64,000 bases of DNA from Streptomyces showdoensis (GTDB lineage: Bacteria > Actinomycetota > Actinomycetes > Streptomycetales > Streptomycetaceae), in contig NZ_BAAAXG010000026.1 in the NCBI RefSeq assembly GCF_039535475.1, positions 3,715,501-3,779,500 on the forward strand. Direction: 5' to 3'. The position numbers and the translations under genes were made by a program. Positions 2,579 to 10,999 of this stretch are shown in pieces; the first letter of the stretch is position 1; every line of letters starts with the position of its first letter. A model generated the notes under the pieces. That model saw nothing but the letters and a program-made list of their open reading frames with translations, did no database searches and was not told where the DNA came from.

Positions 2579-3924
2579 CCCCCGACGCCCCCCGCCTCCC
2601 CGACGGCCCGCGCCTTCCCGGCCGTCCCCGCCCGGACGCCGCCCGCACCCGGCTCTCCCGCACCCCTCCGGCCCGCCCCGCCCTGCCCCGCCACGACGAC
2701 CGGCGCAGGACCTTCCCCCAGCTCGCCCCGCGCGAGGCGCCCGACGGCCGCTTCGCCGCCACCTGGTGGGGCAACGCCTGGGTCGAGTCCCTGGAGGACA
2801 CCGCCCTCGACCCGGCCCGGCTCGGCCGCGGCAAGGCCTACGCCCGGCGCGGCCACGTGGACGCGATCACCGTCACCCCCGGCCGGGTCGTCGCCTACGT
2901 GCACGGCAGCCGGCCGCGCCCGTACCGCACGGAGATCCGCCTGCGGACCCTCGGCGACGACGACTGGGAGCGGTTCCTCGACGAGGCCGCCGCCCGGCCC
3001 GAGCACATCGCGGCCCTCCTCGACAAGGACGTCCCGCACGCCCTGGAAGCCGTCACCGGACTCCTGCCCGCCCCCGGCGACCTCGTCCCCGACTGCTCCT
3101 GCCCCGACGACGGCTACCCCTGCAAGCACGCCGCCGCCCTCTGCTACCAGGCCGCGCGGCTCCTCGACGAGGACCCCTTCGTCCTCTTCCTCATGCGCGG
3201 CCGCGGCGAACAGGAACTCCTCGCCGACCTCACCCGGCGCAACGCGGCCCGCTCCGCCGCCGAACGCTCCACCACGCCCCCGGCCCTCCCCACGGTGCCC
3301 GCCCGCACCGCGCTCGCCCCGCTCACCGGACACAACCTGCCACCGCTGCCCCCGCCGCTCCCCGTGCCCGCGCACCCCGGCCGCCCCGCCGTCTTCCCGG
3401 CCGACCCCGAGGCGCCCGACCCCCTCGCCCTCGACCTCCTGGCCGGCGAGGCCGCCGTCCGCGCGCACGCCTTCCTCGCCACCGGCCACGACCCCGTCGC
3501 CGCGCTGACCCCCTGGCAGGACGCGGTACGGCTGGCGGCCGCACACCCCGGCTCAGGCCTCACCGCCTCCACCCGAGCCCTCTACCGCGACCTCTCCCAC
3601 GCCCTCGACCGCACCCCGACCGACCTGGCCCGCGCCGTCGCCGCCTGGCGCCAGGGCGGACCGGCCGGACTCGCGGTCCTCGAAGACCCCTGGGACCCGC
3701 CCGCCGGCCCGTTCGACCGCGCCCGCCCCGCCCTGCTCGCCGCCGACCTCCCCGCCTTCCGCCCCTGGCGCAACTGGCTCTCCACCCGCTCCCTCCAGCT
3801 CCGCTTCGGCCGGGACGGACTCTGGTACGGGTACGAGTCGGACACCGACCGCGAGGACTGGTGGCCGCGCGGCACGCCGGACGCCGACCCCGTCGGTGCG
3901 GTCACGGCCCTGCTCGGCAGATGA
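2575..3924 (+). CDS. SWIM zinc-finger domain protein
   Basis: A 449-residue protein whose ATG overlaps the stop of the upstream SNF2 helicase (ATGA), with GGAGG seven bases before it. The SWIM signature is visible as CSCPDDGYPCKH at residues 174-185 (C-x-C-x6-C-x-H), which would bind one zinc and is usually a DNA- or protein-binding module. An N-terminal region with FAATWWGNAWVESLED precedes it, and a proline/alanine-rich linker follows the finger. SNF2 plus SWIM gene pairs are conserved in streptomycetes; a joint role in chromatin remodelling or repair is inference from the pairing. The precise biochemical function is unknown. Confidence 0.85.
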   Translation: MTPDAPRLPDGPRLPGRPRPDAARTRLSRTPPARPALPRHDDRRRTFPQLAPREAPDGRFAATWWGNAWVESLEDTALDPARLGRGKAYARRGHVDAITVTPGRVVAYVHGSRPRPYRTEIRLRTLGDDDWERFLDEAAARPEHIAALLDKDVPHALEAVTGLLPAPGDLVPDCSCPDDGYPCKHAAALCYQAARLLDEDPFVLFLMRGRGEQELLADLTRRNAARSAAERSTTPPALPTVPARTALAPLTGHNLPPLPPPLPVPAHPGRPAVFPADPEAPDPLALDLLAGEAAVRAHAFLATGHDPVAALTPWQDAVRLAAAHPGSGLTASTRALYRDLSHALDRTPTDLARAVAAWRQGGPAGLAVLEDPWDPPAGPFDRARPALLAADLPAFRPWRNWLSTRSLQLRFGRDGLWYGYESDTDREDWWPRGTPDADPVGAVTALLGR

Positions 3925-3971
3925 CCGACCGATAGGCTGGAGCGACGCGAAGCGGACTCGAAGGGGGCCTG

Positions 3972-4460
3972 GTGGAAGCCGAGTTGATGGCACTGGCGTC
4001 GGCGGGCGCGACCGCCCTGGTGCAGCAGATGGTGAGCGACGGCTGGGAGCGCGCGCGGACCAGGGTCGCCGCGTTCCTCGCCGCCCGCTCCGGGGCCGAC
4101 GAGCAGGCGCTCGGCGAGGAACTCGAAGCGGCCCGCGACGAGGTGCTGCGCGCCGAACGGTCCGGCGACGAGGAAACGGCGGACGAGGCGAGGACCGAGG
4201 CCCGCACCGAATGGCGGGCACGGATGCGACGGAGCCTGCTCGCGGACCCCGAGGCCGCCGCGGAACTGCAGGCGATCCTGGACGAGTTGGACGGTAGTGG
4301 CGAAGCCCCGCAGGCGCACCACACCACGGTCATCACCAACAACCTCACCGGGGGCGTCCACCACAGCTTCACCCTCCAGGTCGGTACGGTCGGCCGGATC
4401 AACCGGATCGGAAACGACGACGTCTCCGGTACCGGGGGACAGGGCGGCCCCCGCCCATGA
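3972..4460 (+). CDS. conserved hypothetical protein with coiled-coil-like N-half
   Basis: A 162-residue protein of unknown function. The GTG start has AAGGGGG five bases upstream, and a -10-like TAGGCT lies at about 3931-3936. The first 100 residues are Ala/Glu/Arg-rich and look like long amphipathic helices. The C-terminal third turns into a beta-like stretch (TTVITNNLTGG, HHSFTLQVG), followed by a Gly-rich end. There is no signal peptide or membrane segment. It stands alone between the helicase operon and a convergent gene, so context gives no role. Confidence 0.7.
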   Translation: MEAELMALASAGATALVQQMVSDGWERARTRVAAFLAARSGADEQALGEELEAARDEVLRAERSGDEETADEARTEARTEWRARMRRSLLADPEAAAELQAILDELDGSGEAPQAHHTTVITNNLTGGVHHSFTLQVGTVGRINRIGNDDVSGTGGQGGPRP

Positions 4461-4530
4461 CCCCCGACCCCGTCGTCCCGGTCGTCCTCCCCGCCGCCCG
4501 GACGCCCCGGTCGCTCCCGGCGCCGACCCG

Positions 4531-6345
4531 CTAGCCGGGGCCAGGGCCCTCCGCGCCGGCCCGAGCCCCCACCGCCCGCACCCCGACCCGGTGTCGGACC
4601 GCGCCGGTCACCACGACCAGCGTCCCCGCGGCGGCGAGCGCGGTGAGCGGGCGGCCGCCGGTCCGCCAGGCATGGACGGCGGAGGCGTACGCGGCGGGGT
4701 CGCACGGGTCGGCGAAGCCGTCCGGGCGGGGGAGCGCGGTCAGTTCGAGCGAGGCGTCGCCTGCCCCCTCCGCCGTGTCCTCCCTCGCCCGCACCAGGCA
4801 GCTCCCCGGCCCCGTCCGCACGGCCACGAGACCGGCGTACGGGTACTGCCGGAGCAGTTCGGCCGCGCGCGGGCCCGCCGGGTCGCCGTTCCGCAGGCGG
4901 TCGACGATCACGTCCGCGAGGGCGAGTTGTCCGGTGTCGGCGGTCGCCTCGTCCACCGCCGTGTGCGCGGCGTCGGCGTCCGGGGCGTCGGGTTCCGCCG
5001 CGGGGTCGGCGTGGCGGGTGACGGTGATCTCCGGCAGGCCGTCGGGCCCGGTCGGCCGGACCGAGGTGAGGACCCGGACGGGAACGGTGACGGCCGGCGG
5101 CCCGAGCCCCTCGGGCACCGGCAGCGGGTCGAGCCGGGCCGGGCGCGCGGGTTCGGGCAGCCGCAGCAGGGAGTGGAAGAGCGTCCGCAGCAGCCGCGCG
5201 GATCCGCCCGGGTCGGAGCTCGCGGTCGCAGCGAACCCGTCGTACCGCCCGGGCACGTGTCCCTCGATCACCGCGTCCAGTTGCGCGCGCAGCGGTACGC
5301 CCGGGCGGAGCGCGGGCGCGGTCCGCCCGAGCTCGGCGACCGGGGACGCCGGGTCCAGGTCCTCGTGCGCGAACGCGCCCAGCAGGACCGGGAGTCCGAG
5401 CGCGGCGGCGTAGTAGGTGACGGAGCCGTGGTCGCCGAGCACGCAGTCGGCCGCGGCGACCGCCTGCCGCCAGGGGCCCAGCGGATCGATCGGCGTGAGC
5501 CCGGAGTCCTCGGCCCGGCGCAGCCACCTGCGGACCTGGCCGGGCCCGTGCCCGTACCAGATGTTGGGGTGGAGCACCGCGCACAGCCGGTACTCGTCCG
5601 CGGGCAGGGTCTCGGCCGACTCCCGCAGCAGCGCGGGGAAGGCGTCCGATCCGGCGAGCGAGGCCCGGCCCCAGGTGGAGTTCAGGACGACGAGCCGCCG
5701 CCCGTCGCCCACGCCGAACGCGCGGCGCAGCGCGGGGCGCCGGTGGCGGAGCGCGAGCATCCGGTCGAAGCAGGGGTCTCCGGCGAGGACCGCGGTCGCG
5801 GCGGCCTCGGGGCAGTCGCGCCGCAGCCGTTCGAGCTGTTCGGGATGGGACAGCACCGTCGCCGTGGCGAGCGGCCGGCCCTCGTGGAGCACCCACTCCG
5901 GGGCCGTTCCGAAGACGGGCGCGGCGGCCGACGGCTCGCGCGCCCCGCCACCGGTGTCCGGCGTCGGCAGCCTTTTGTTGTAGCCGACGCCGTGTGAAAG
6001 AATGGTCAACTTCCCTTCGAAGAAATGGAGTTCACCTCCATAGCTCGCTGTGACCGCGAGGTCGATCCGTCCCTCCGTCGCCAGTTCCCTGGCCTGTTCC
6101 CACGGCACGACCGGCAGTCCGGCCCCGTCGAGCAGTTCCGGTACGCCGGCCTGGAAGGGGGAGGAGCCGGTGCAGGTCGCGAGACACAGCACGTCGGGGG
6201 CGTCGTCGAAGAGCGGGAGAACGTCGAGCAGGCGGGTCGCCGAGGTCACGTTGTGCACGATGAAGAGCACGGTGCGGAGGCCCTCCCGGGTCCGCCAGCG
6301 TGTCGAGTCCCGTCCCACCGGCACGCGTAGACGCTCCGGTCCCAT
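4531..6345 (-). CDS. GT-B-fold glycosyltransferase-like / CDP-glycerol transferase-like protein
   Basis: A 604-residue cytoplasmic protein. The start at 6345 is chosen because GGGAGG sits five bases upstream; in-frame starts further out to 6393 exist. The N-terminal half looks like a Rossmann-type domain (VLFIVHNVTSATRLLDVLPL, SYGGELHF, LSHGVGYNK). The middle has features of the second domain of GT-B enzymes (VVLNSTWG, HPNIWYGHG, and AADCVLGDHGSVTYYAAALG, where such enzymes bind the nucleotide). This suggests relation to polyglycerolphosphate or epimerase-type GT-B proteins, but I do not recognise a characterised member. The last 150 residues are variable. Function unproven. Confidence 0.65.
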   Translation of the reverse strand: MGPERLRVPVGRDSTRWRTREGLRTVLFIVHNVTSATRLLDVLPLFDDAPDVLCLATCTGSSPFQAGVPELLDGAGLPVVPWEQARELATEGRIDLAVTASYGGELHFFEGKLTILSHGVGYNKRLPTPDTGGGAREPSAAAPVFGTAPEWVLHEGRPLATATVLSHPEQLERLRRDCPEAAATAVLAGDPCFDRMLALRHRRPALRRAFGVGDGRRLVVLNSTWGRASLAGSDAFPALLRESAETLPADEYRLCAVLHPNIWYGHGPGQVRRWLRRAEDSGLTPIDPLGPWRQAVAAADCVLGDHGSVTYYAAALGLPVLLGAFAHEDLDPASPVAELGRTAPALRPGVPLRAQLDAVIEGHVPGRYDGFAATASSDPGGSARLLRTLFHSLLRLPEPARPARLDPLPVPEGLGPPAVTVPVRVLTSVRPTGPDGLPEITVTRHADPAAEPDAPDADAAHTAVDEATADTGQLALADVIVDRLRNGDPAGPRAAELLRQYPYAGLVAVRTGPGSCLVRAREDTAEGAGDASLELTALPRPDGFADPCDPAAYASAVHAWRTGGRPLTALAAAGTLVVVTGAVRHRVGVRAVGARAGAEGPGPG

Positions 6346-8610: not shown

Positions 8611-9345
8611 GTGGCAACGAAACTCAATCAGATCATCGCAGTAGAGAAAGGCGTCAAGTCCCGGGCGCAGCAGGACCTGACCACCGCCCAGCACGGGCTG
8701 CAGAAGCCGGCGCTGCTGGCGGGCATCTCCCGTACGTACCAGCCGAAGGACGAGGAGGGCGAGCAGCTGCCGCCCGAGTCGACGCCGGTGCAGGTCAAGG
8801 CCGAGGACGTGCTGCGCGACACGGCGCGGACGCTGACCCGCCTCTTCGACGTCACCGCCACCAAGGACTGGGCGAACTGCGAGGCCCGCGCCGACGTCAC
8901 CGTCGACGGACGGGTGCTCGTGGACGGGGTGCCGGTCGGGTACCTGCTCTTCCTGGAGAAGCAGCTCGCCGAGATCCTCGCCTTCGTCCGCAGGCTGCCG
9001 GTCCTGGACGCCGCCGAGTCGTGGACGCAGGACCCGTCGACGGACGCGTGGAAGACCGAGCCCGTCCGCACCGTCCGTACGAAGAAGGTGCCGCGCAACC
9101 ACGTCAAGGCGGAGGCGACGGAGAACCACCCGGCGCAGGTCGAGGTGTACTACGAGGACGTCCCGGTGGGGTACTGGACCACCGTGAAGTTCTCCGGCGC
9201 GCTGCCCGCCCGGCGGGTGAGGGAGCTGATCGAGCGGGTCGAGAAGCTCCAGCAGGCGGTGAAGTTCGCCCGCGAGGAGGCGAACGGCACCGAGATCACC
9301 GACCGGCGCGTCGGCGACGCGGTCTTCGGCTACCTCTTCGGGTAG
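8611..9345 (+). CDS. conserved actinobacterial hypothetical protein (DUF7873-like)
   Basis: A 244-residue soluble protein. The GTG start is placed just after a TAGGGT -10 box, consistent with a leaderless message, and gives the family-typical opening ATKLNQIIAVEKG. No catalytic motif is recognised. The sequence has repeated short features, such as VDGVPVGYL and YEDVPVGYW, which suggest a duplicated beta element (residues about 105-115 and 185-195). It ends in a charged helix. I believe it belongs to the family named DUF7873, but that is from memory. Function unknown. Confidence 0.7.
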   Translation: MATKLNQIIAVEKGVKSRAQQDLTTAQHGLQKPALLAGISRTYQPKDEEGEQLPPESTPVQVKAEDVLRDTARTLTRLFDVTATKDWANCEARADVTVDGRVLVDGVPVGYLLFLEKQLAEILAFVRRLPVLDAAESWTQDPSTDAWKTEPVRTVRTKKVPRNHVKAEATENHPAQVEVYYEDVPVGYWTTVKFSGALPARRVRELIERVEKLQQAVKFAREEANGTEITDRRVGDAVFGYLFG

Positions 9346-9475
9346 CCGTCCGCCGACGGCCGCACGGCCGTCACCATGAACTCCCCGGCCGCCAGCCGCG
9401 GCCGGGGTGCGCGAGGAGCGCAAAGCTGAAGCTGAGCCTTGTCGTGAATCCGCGGCCCGGGTCACCCGAGCACCT

Positions 9476-9504
9476 CTGACCCGGATCGCGTTCAAACTCA
9501 GACT
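9476..9504 (+). promoter_or_regulatory. candidate promoter for the tRNA-like RNA
   Basis: CTGACC (9476-9481), 17 bases, CAGACT (9499-9504). The predicted start near 9510 coincides with the 5' edge of the helix that would close the structure described at 9563-9637. Weak matches; inference only. Confidence 0.3.
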
Positions 9505-9562
9505 ATTGCTCCAGATTCAGCATGCGCCGCTCATCGCCGGACCGACCGGGCCCGGGCCCAGG

Positions 9563-9637
9563 TGCGTCGAAATGCCAGTTCGAATCTGGTCCGCCGAGCT
9601 CTCGATCGGCGGTGGTCCAATGGCAGGACGCGACGCA
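9563..9637 (+). tRNA. permuted tRNA-like gene (3' half precedes 5' half)
   Basis: The 3' half comes first: anticodon-stem strand CGTCG (9565-9569), variable bases AAAT, T-arm GCCAG-TTCGAAT-CTGGT (9574-9590), acceptor strand CCGCCGA (9591-9597) and G73 (9598). After seven bases comes the 5' half: acceptor strand TCGGCGG (9606-9612), TG, D-arm GTCC-AATGGCA-GGAC (9615-9629), G26, then CGACG (9631-9635). All acceptor pairs (7/7), T-stem, D-stem and anticodon-stem pairs (5/5, extendable to 7) form. Invariant T54, T55, C56, A58, G18, G19 and an A15/T48 Levitt pair are present. U1-A72 with G73 is seen in Gln and Asn tRNAs. No anticodon loop with U33 can be assembled from the ends. It may be a permuted gene, a tRNA-like ncRNA, or a relic of a truncated tandem pair. 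Confidence 0.5.
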
Positions 9638-9695
9638 ATGACGACTCACCCGGGTTCTCAAGTGGGCCGGCGTGTGAAGAGGAGCGGCTTCGAAA

Positions 9696-9726
9696 GGGTC
9701 CGGGGGCAGGCTACGCCCTCGGACCC
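9696..9726. terminator. terminator hairpin, bidirectional position
   Basis: A 12-pair stem (one G-T pair; arms 9696-9707 and 9715-9726) with a seven-base loop lies downstream of the minus-strand aminotransferase and also downstream of the plus-strand tRNA-like element. It could end either transcript. Confidence 0.6.
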
Positions 9727-9787
9727 GCTGCCGTTCCGGGGCGGCCTGCGGCCGGCGCCCCCGCCGCTCCTGACCGACGGCCCCGGA

Positions 9788-10999
9788 CTACTGGCGGTAG
9801 CCGCCGAGGAAGCGTCCGATGCGGCTGATCGCCGCGTCCAGGTCGTCCGCGTGGGGGAGCGTCAGGATGCGGAAGTGGTCCGGGCGCGGCCAGTTGAACC
9901 CCGTGCCCTGGACGACCTGGATCTTCTCCCGCAGGAGCAGGTCGAGGACGAAGCGCTCGTCGTCGTGGATCCTGTGGACCTTCGGATCCAAGCGCGGGAA
10001 GGCGTAGAGCGCGCCCTTCGGCTTGACGCAGGAGACGCCGGGGATCTCGTTCAGCTTCTCCCAGGCGCGGTCGCGCTGTTCGTACAGGCGTCCCCCGGGG
10101 GCGGTGAGGTCGTCGATCGACTGCCGGCCGCCGAGGGCCGCCTGGATGGCGTACTGGGCGGGGGCGTTGGGGCAGAGCCGCATGGAGGCCAGCATCGTCA
10201 GGCCCTCCAGATAGCTCCGGGCGTGCTCCCTGGGGCCGGTGACGACCAGCCAGCCCGAGCGGAAGCCCGCCACCCGGTACGTCTTCGACAGGCCGCCGAA
10301 GGTGAGGACCACCAGGTCGGGGGCGAGGGAGGCGGCCGGGTAGTGCACGGCGTCGTCGTAGACGATCTGGTCGTAGATCTCGTCGGCGAAGACCATCAGG
10401 CCGTGCCGGCGGGCGAGGTCGAGGATGCCCTCGACGATCTCCTTCGGGTAGACCGCGCCGGTGGGGTTGTTCGGGTTGATGATCACGACGGCGCGGGTCC
10501 GGTCGGTGATCTTCGAGGCCATGTCGTCGAGGTCCGGATACCACTCGGCGGACTCGTCGCACAGGTAGTGCACGGCCTTGCCGCCCGCGAGGGTCGTGAC
10601 GGCCGTCCACAGGGGGAAGTCGGGGGCCGGGATCAGGACCTCGTCGCCGTCCTCCAGGAGCGCCTGGACGGCCATCGACACCAGCTCGGAGACGCCGTTG
10701 CCGAGGAAGACGTCGTCGACGTCGACGTCCCGCAGCCCCATCGACTGGTAGCGCTGGGCGACCGCGCGGCGGGCGGAGAGGATGCCGCGCGAGTCGGTGT
10801 ACCCGTGCGCCTTGGGGAGCATCCGGATCATGTCCTGGACGATCTCCTCGGGCGCCTCGAAGCCGAAGAGCGCCGGGTTTCCGGTGTTGAGGCGCAGGAC
10901 GCTGTGGCCCGCCTCCTCCAGGGCGTTGGCGTGCTCGATGACCGGGCCGCGGATCTCGTAGCAGACCTCGCTCAGCTTGCTCGACTGCCGGAACTCCAT
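9788..10999 (-). CDS. class I/II PLP-dependent aminotransferase (alanine transaminase type)
   Basis: A 403-residue fold-type I aminotransferase. It shows the substrate/PLP loop NPNNPTG, the aspartate of FADEIYD, the PLP lysine in FGGLSKTYRVAGFRSGW and the C-terminal arginine in DHFRILTLP. Overall it resembles the AlaA/YfbQ group, which transfers amino groups between alanine and glutamate through pyruvate and 2-oxoglutarate. Specificity is by family resemblance only. The ATG at 10999 has GGGGAGG seven bases before it; the frame stays open upstream but without support. It is divergent from an HxlR regulator across an 84-base region with three overlapping palindromes, so that regulator probably controls it. 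Confidence 0.88.
   Translation of the reverse strand: MEFRQSSKLSEVCYEIRGPVIEHANALEEAGHSVLRLNTGNPALFGFEAPEEIVQDMIRMLPKAHGYTDSRGILSARRAVAQRYQSMGLRDVDVDDVFLGNGVSELVSMAVQALLEDGDEVLIPAPDFPLWTAVTTLAGGKAVHYLCDESAEWYPDLDDMASKITDRTRAVVIINPNNPTGAVYPKEIVEGILDLARRHGLMVFADEIYDQIVYDDAVHYPAASLAPDLVVLTFGGLSKTYRVAGFRSGWLVVTGPREHARSYLEGLTMLASMRLCPNAPAQYAIQAALGGRQSIDDLTAPGGRLYEQRDRAWEKLNEIPGVSCVKPKGALYAFPRLDPKVHRIHDDERFVLDLLLREKIQVVQGTGFNWPRPDHFRILTLPHADDLDAAISRIGRFLGGYRQ

Follow-up and report, generated by a model that had tools for sequence, protein, structure and literature searches.

Circularly permuted tRNA genes exist in algae and archaea. Among bacterial RNAs, the closest described system is YrlA, a Y RNA whose partner is Ro60 (Rsr). 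Excerpts of two reports describe a tRNA-like domain of YrlA that resembles the D, T and acceptor arms and is a substrate of the modifying enzymes DusA and TruB, as well as the tethering of Rsr to PNPase by a bacterial Y RNA (PMC8394870, PMC7790460); in an excerpt of the second, YrlA is also suggested to act as a competitive inhibitor of an anticodon nuclease (PMC7790460). Here, we analyzed a 64,000-nucleotide stretch of Streptomyces showdoensis DNA (contig NZ_BAAAXG010000026.1, positions 3,715,501 to 3,779,500, hereafter the window) that contains a tRNA-like module within a structured noncoding RNA. This RNA lies 3' of a gene encoding a DUF7873 protein, a family without assigned function, and probably forms with it a Y-RNA-like ribonucleoprotein (RNP) that does not depend on Ro60.

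A permuted tRNA-like module in a structured RNA

The structured RNA extends over about 9383-9726, just downstream of the DUF7873 gene and on the same strand, its first hairpin starting 38 nt past the stop codon. The features of the locus are listed below.

8611-9345, + strand: DUF7873 (PF25283) gene, 244 aa, GTG start (Pfam; start set by comparison with homologues)
9383-9407, + strand: conserved 10-bp hairpin, the first of the RNA (fold and alignment)
9408-9422, + strand: short hairpin TGCGC/GCGCA, near-invariant in 11 aligned Streptomyces
9423-9449, + strand: conserved element AAGCTGAAGCTGAGCCTTGTCGTGAAT, partly paired with 9498-9521 in the predicted fold
9451-9490, + strand: plain hairpin at the site of module 1 (a class-II-like permuted tRNA module in 49 of 70 relatives)
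9493-9521, + strand: conserved linker CAAACTCAGACTATTGCTCCAGATTCAGC, from the module-1 site to module 2
9526-9563, + strand: 5' strands of the stems supporting module 2 (covarying pairs and fold)
9564-9569, + strand: 3' strand of the module 2 anticodon stem, partner of 9631-9636
9574-9590, + strand: T-arm of module 2 (sequence, covariance model and fold)
9591-9597, + strand: 3' acceptor strand of module 2 (sequence, covariance model and fold)
9598-9605, + strand: acceptor-joining loop of module 2, from position 73, without CCA here
9606-9612, + strand: 5' acceptor strand of module 2 (sequence, covariance model and fold)
9615-9629, + strand: D-arm of module 2, class I, 4-bp stem, loop AATGGCA
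9631-9636, + strand: 5' strand of the module 2 anticodon stem (sequence and fold)
9640-9690, + strand: 3' strands of the stems supporting module 2, including the conserved element CTCAAGTG..GCCGGCGTGTG
9696-9726, + strand: strong 3' hairpin GGGTCCGGGGGC..GCCCTCGGACCC, conserved, without a T-run

Both the sequence and its predicted fold give a complete permuted cloverleaf at 9564-9636. The T-arm (stem GCCAG/CTGGT at 9574-9578/9586-9590, loop TTCGAAT) is followed by the two acceptor strands, paired at 7 of 7 positions, then by U8-G9 (9613-9614) and by a D-arm (stem 9615-9618/9626-9629) whose loop provides A14, A15, G18, G19 and A21. The variable region AAAT supplies U48, which pairs with A15, and the anticodon stem, formed by 9564-9569 and 9631-9636, is predicted to extend to 7 bp. 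For 9376-9730, the minimum-energy structure is exactly the same cloverleaf atop a long stem. The back-to-front tRNA-like halves, the acceptor pairing, the anticodon stem and the 15-48 pair read in the initial annotation are thus confirmed; its seven-base linker holds if position 73 is left out, and is 8 nt long with it.

The fold of 9376-9730 has a z-score of -4.67, none of 100 shuffled sequences being equally stable. Taken alone, the module (9552-9650) gives a z-score of -0.34, with 66 of 200 shuffles equally stable, so that its stability is no evidence and conservation provides the evidence instead. Against a covariance model built from 37 relatives, 9560-9639 reaches 72.7 bits (E 4.6e-23); the rows of the model include a near-identical Streptomyces copy (L113) but not the window itself. 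Fold, covariance model and conservation agree on a permuted tRNA-like fold within a structured RNA, as first proposed, which is neither a chance structure nor a tRNA relic nor a decoding tRNA. The module has no U33 or anticodon, and the earlier view that it is non-decoding is probably right.

Two proposals on the limits of the transcript fared differently. The promoter seen in CTGACC-17-CAGACT is not retained: CTGACC sits in the 3' strand of the hairpin 9451-9490, which occupies the site where many relatives have another tRNA-like module, and a simple consensus scan found no sigma-70-type site. The hairpin said to end the unit at 9726 is indeed conserved but has no T-run; it is probably the end of the transcript.

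Conservation and covariation of the modules

Many relatives contain two modules, and the window copy, with a single one, resembles those of 21 of the 70 Streptomyces described below. Among 154 loci with at least two modules, a class-II-like module (3-bp D-stem, Leu-like) comes first and a class-I-like module (4-bp D-stem) second in 123; the other 31 include 20 with one D-arm left untyped by our script and 9 typed 3-3. The T-arm spacing minus the first linker has a median of 141 nt in hosts and 143 nt in phages, and the acceptor sequences of the two modules of one locus differ. Outside the modules, conserved elements are found on the 5' side (GAGCGCAAGCTGA..), between the modules (TCAGACT..CGCTCCAGACTCAGCAT and GATCGACCGG) and on the 3' side (CCTTAAACG..), and they likely form a protein-binding scaffold.

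The modules covary. Covariation scores reach 0.765 for module 2 (37 rows; 0.220 shuffled) and 0.611 for module 1 (38 rows; 0.175 shuffled), and changes on both sides occur at 20 of 21 pairs of module 2 (17.5 in shuffles, hence a weak measure alone) and at 19 of 20 pairs of module 1 (13.3 in shuffles), all these comparisons overstating significance because the sequences share ancestry and the events are not independent. The compensatory-change check put forward in the initial annotation is thus positive for both modules. In a whole-RNA alignment of 30 rows, 49 pairs are predicted and 43 of them show at least one compensatory change, among them pairs in the stems supporting module 2; the covarying pairs behind 9526-9563 correspond to columns 266-271/414-419 and 279-286/396-403 of alignment A5.

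Over the 301 unique modules with a typed D-arm, the acceptor and T stems display many pair types. Since detection required 6 of 7 acceptor pairs, 4 of 5 T-stem pairs and a full D-stem, the percentage of pairing in these helices is circular, both-side changes being less so; the 15-48 pair, the anticodon stem and CCA at 74-76 are independent of detection. Positions 15-48 are A-U in 262 modules, G-C in 29 (26 of them from phages), A-C in 7, and G-U, C-U and C-C in one each, so that this tertiary pair is A-U or G-C in 291 of 301. The anticodon stem pairs at 5 of 5 positions, in the best of several registers, in 102 of 134 first modules and 139 of 167 second modules, as compared with 28% and 42%, respectively, when halves are dealt among loci. 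With one forced register, only 63.7% (module 1) and 59.5% (module 2) of cells are paired.

Linkage of the RNA to DUF7873 genes

The RNA accompanies DUF7873 genes in hosts and phages. Regions matching the window RNA at E<=1e-7 are present in 13 of 36 other genomes of the genus (in one over 66 nt only), and all 13 genomes belong to the DUF7873-positive set. Their alignment revealed in many of them a second module of similar build immediately upstream. PF25283 is found in 70 of 150 Streptomyces genomes, as a single copy in each. A module detector (T-arm, 3' acceptor, loop and 5' acceptor) applied to the 700 nt after DUF7873 returned one module in 21 of these 70 genomes, two in 49 and zero in none, and the question of conservation raised in the initial annotation is answered positively. 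One or two modules were also detected in 80 of 80 loci of a separate host genome collection (best 80 of 567), which overlap in species with the 70 Streptomyces genomes. For viral loci from IMG/VR (best 80 of 407), the detector found at least one module in 72 of 80 and the covariance model in 76 of 80, adding L209, L216, L255 and L256; a further locus, L257, has an apparent module with a long linker, seen by eye, and no module was found by tools or eye in L267 or in L213 and L214, whose downstream sequences are identical. Control matches over the 80 host and 80 viral loci totaled 0.4 and 0.8 in shuffled sequences, 1 and 1 on the reverse strand, and 2 and 8 upstream.

Seventy-three named phage records contain a DUF7873 relative, and we fetched 11, from phages of Arthrobacter, Gordonia (2), Rhodococcus, Pseudanabaena, Klebsiella (2), Rhizobium (2), Vibrio and Microcoleus. 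Modules lie within 900 nt after DUF7873 in 10 of them, two in 7 phages and one in 3 (L106-L108). In the eleventh (L109, Microcoleus), model matches occur about 1.8 kb downstream, beyond a gene of about 1.3 kb (3675-4952) whose product looks, by eye, like an IscB-type RNA-guided nuclease. Downstream model matches were likewise found in 11 of 11 further viral loci (L272-L282). The RNA/DUF7873 locus is common in tailed phages, several copies being located inside tRNA gene arrays or clusters, and roughly one in two of the sampled Streptomyces has it. No description of this RNA was found in the literature searched, and no Rfam family covers it at cut-off in the loci scanned.

Some of these loci contain other RNAs. 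In the Rhizobium and Vibrio phages L107 and L108, the one module is followed by an ordinary tRNA gene at the possible site of module 2. A cobalamin riboswitch (86.4 bits) lies near the RNA in one Streptomyces genome (L086, 759-939), a tmRNA (RF00023) in Gordonia phage Phendrix (L101, 1078-1606), and a permuted tmRNA (RF04321) in a viral contig with a DUF7873 gene (L270, 5037-5334).

The DUF7873 protein as presumed partner

The window protein is a member of PF25283, which it matches at 395.9 bits for a cut-off of 27; five phage homologues score 214-292 bits. Its nearest named protein, from Streptomyces, is 92% identical, and identity drops to 26-32% in some phage and viral loci. The family is large, with 7,129 proteins at E<=0.001 among 7,998 scored. 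An AlphaFold2 model of the protein is confident (pLDDT 92.8, pTM 0.77) and displays long helices and long beta-strands. Neither sequence searches (best E 0.11 and 0.14) nor structure comparison gave a convincing relative among solved proteins. We found no PADLOC or NCBIfam match for three proteins each, no PHROGs match for 15 members, and no paper naming DUF7873 in the literature searched. DUF7873 is present on three Streptomyces plasmid records too (H21-H23), and Deinobacterium chartae is the sole one of 14 control genomes matching both DUF7873 and TROVE. We know of no earlier link between this family and RNA.

We presume that DUF7873 is the protein partner of the RNA, and we infer that the RNA is transcribed, bound by DUF7873 and functional. 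The RNA enters the tRNA fold through the anticodon stem, as in YrlA-type Y RNAs, and this mode of entry accounts for both the permuted gene order and the acceptor closed by a loop. DUF7873 would hold the conserved scaffold, on which many relatives (49 of 70 Streptomyces) have two tandem modules. By analogy with Rsr and YrlA, the modules may imitate the elbow and acceptor of tRNAs and so recruit or occupy tRNA-handling machinery, candidate targets being enzymes that process or modify tRNAs, or an exonuclease, for example PNPase.

The acceptor loop in phages and in Streptomyces

CCA is found exactly at 74-76 in 77 modules, that is, 58 of 123 from phages and 19 of 178 from hosts, as compared with 8 modules among all 301 in which CCA stands elsewhere within the first six linker offsets. 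U at -1 is present in 82 of 123 phage modules and in 125 of 262 ordinary tRNAs of those phage loci. Ordinary tRNA genes are found in 43 phage loci and mostly lack CCA in 37; a module with CCA is present in 25 of these 37, indicating that it is not a mere gene convention. Together, CCA and the frequent U at -1 suggest that the phage modules are recognized by tRNA-end-handling enzymes, perhaps with cutting by RNase P. In Streptomyces, the module-2 loop is for the most part conserved, and 106 of 110 such loops have no CCA. Of these 110, 79 have CTC at 74-76, 71 end in CGA and just 17 have U at -1, and a closed acceptor is therefore expected there. The putative opening of the loop by RNase P, envisaged in the initial annotation, gains some support from the phage relatives but not from the window loop GCTCTCGA, which has neither CCA nor U at -1.

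These loops bear on a reading that is compatible with the RNP proposed above, and that we consider unlikely. RNase P and 3' trimming would open the acceptor loops, leaving two or three pieces held together by the stems. Every module would then have a mature CCA end open to charging or to binding by RNase P, the CCA enzyme, EF-Tu or the ribosome; the two-piece permuted tmRNA offers a parallel. The position of CCA, its independence of the tRNA gene convention and the U at -1 all fit such processing in phages. The Streptomyces module-2 loops, that of the window included, do not, and CCA may act in recognition without any cutting. In a tentative scenario, to which we give an equally low probability, a widespread phage-born RNP would combine DUF7873 with tandem class-II-like and class-I-like permuted mimics, the CCA loops of phage copies being opened by tRNA-processing enzymes into a multi-piece RNA that would present two acceptor ends at once to the ribosome or to tRNA enzymes, and the Streptomyces form would be a domesticated version with closed loops.

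Other possible roles for the same locus

The same RNP could also be used as a phage-born decoy that occupies tRNA-targeting defense factors or toxins recognizing the elbow or acceptor and thereby protects tRNAs, Streptomyces retaining a domesticated copy. Its frequency in phages, several times within tRNA gene clusters, and its mimicry of tRNA without an anticodon are consistent with this role, as is the anticodon-nuclease inhibition suggested for YrlA in the excerpt cited above (PMC7790460). However, the module offers no anticodon loop as bait for anticodon nucleases, the three DUF7873 proteins compared with PADLOC matched no defense family, and the finding of the locus in roughly one in two of the sampled Streptomyces suggests that it serves these hosts in some way of its own. 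We regard a decoy role as rather unlikely.

The proximity of the first hairpin to the DUF7873 stop codon, on the same strand, and the lack of a separate promoter in the simple scan would fit a cis-acting 3' UTR whose structure controls the stability or translation of the DUF7873 message, perhaps through binding by DUF7873 itself. We find this improbable: two elaborate tRNA mimics with tertiary contacts exceed the needs of such a role, and in L109 a gene of about 1.3 kb separates DUF7873 from the model matches.

Kinship with Y RNAs

The Rfam YrlA consensus displays the same permuted module, and the DUF7873-linked RNA shares with YrlA a permuted tRNA-like module with a closed acceptor. The YrlA model (RF02553) matches 8 of 8 relatives' loci scanned at E<=5, mostly over its full length and all below the cut-off of 69, the best matches scoring 38.7 bits (1.8e-5) and 31.1 bits (0.0027) and the others 22.8-25.8. 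No match was obtained at the gathering score in 40 other phage and host loci, nor at E<=10 in the window at 9000-10300. As both Ro60 association and the model cut-off were tested with negative results, we call the RNA Y-RNA-like and do not class it as a member of YrlA.

No match to a TROVE (Ro60) gene was found in the genome of the window. Among 150 Streptomyces genomes, 41 match both DUF7873 and TROVE, 29 DUF7873 only, 39 TROVE only and 41 neither (p 0.25), absence of TROVE meaning none by that search because the matches span only about 61-74 of 442 model positions. The DUF7873-linked RNA thus occurs independently of the Ro60 gene. At least 21 matches to our model R1 lie 0.9-1.4 kb from a TROVE match, and models R1 and R2 identify two RNAs, with starts about 170-255 nt apart, at 9 of 9 Streptomyces TROVE loci (L294-L302) that had been chosen for fetching by their R1 match. 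These RNAs also score below the Rfam YrlA cut-off. The matches beside TROVE genes indicate that the Ro60-linked Y-like RNAs of Streptomyces have a locus of their own. The motif GTGCG[AC]AGG, picked after viewing the loci, is present in 8 of 9 TROVE loci (beside the first module in 7 of 9); none of the 70 host DUF7873 stretches has it, and 1 of the 80 viral ones does. The sequence GNCGAANG, which we take to be the Ro60-binding stem motif, is absent from the window RNA; 25 of 70 host stretches and 20 of 80 viral ones contain it, whereas none of the 9 TROVE loci does, so that it cannot serve to tell the two kinds of RNA apart.

It is very doubtful, then, that the RNA is an ordinary YrlA Y RNA working in trans with host Ro60 (Rsr), DUF7873 being a mere neighbor. 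The type of module and the TROVE match in 41 of 70 DUF7873-positive Streptomyces would allow it; against it stand the other 29, the window's genome included, the YrlA-like RNAs that TROVE genes have of their own, with their distinct motif, and the link to DUF7873 across unrelated phages.

Finally, a true permuted tRNA gene circularized to a decoding tRNA, or the relic of a tandem tRNA pair, both raised in the initial annotation, can hardly be credited: the gene order agrees with either and tandem identical tRNA genes give the same pattern, but there is no U33 anticodon loop, the open ends of the anticodon stem continue into long covarying outer stems, the module halves covary with each other, the two modules of one locus differ in their acceptors, and the RNA is tied to DUF7873. 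A permuted gene whose anticodon loop is rebuilt from its termini is rejected on the same grounds, and ARAGORN, which found 0 tRNA genes in the window, does not support a functional tRNA gene. Two adjacent tRNA-Asn(gtt) genes in another Streptomyces sequence (L293, 497-648) do resemble a permuted tRNA and give false matches to the permuted-module models, and 61.1-bit matches such as theirs recur in many other Streptomyces.

Comparison with known systems

The initial reading was correct in part, and missed the second module of the relatives, the DUF7873 gene and the link to Y RNAs. The uncharacterized DUF7873 family now has a candidate partner RNA, and bacterial Y RNAs appear to share their tRNA-mimic architecture with RNAs that are not tied to Ro60. 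A second, often doubled phage version, many copies of which have exact CCA ends, makes the purpose of the tRNA-like module in Y RNAs testable, and the coexistence of both systems in 41 of 150 Streptomyces allows a direct comparison.

The order of the halves is that of the circularly permuted tRNA genes of algae and archaea, but the present RNA is bacterial and phage-borne, has no anticodon, and possesses outer stems and a protein neighbor. As in the permuted two-piece tmRNA (RF04321), the 3' acceptor half precedes the 5' half and is joined to it by a loop; in contrast, the modules have full 4-bp or 3-bp D-stems, and no tmRNA-family covariance match covers any module in the loci scanned. The closest likeness is to YrlA, the partner of Ro60/Rsr, with which the RNA shares a tRNA-like module that comprises T-arm, D-arm and closed acceptor and is reached from the RNA ends by a basal stem. 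It differs from YrlA in neighboring DUF7873 and not TROVE, in scoring below the Rfam gathering score, in lacking the motif of the Streptomyces TROVE-linked RNAs, in often having two modules about 141-143 nt apart (linker excluded), and in the CCA that many phage copies carry at 74-76.
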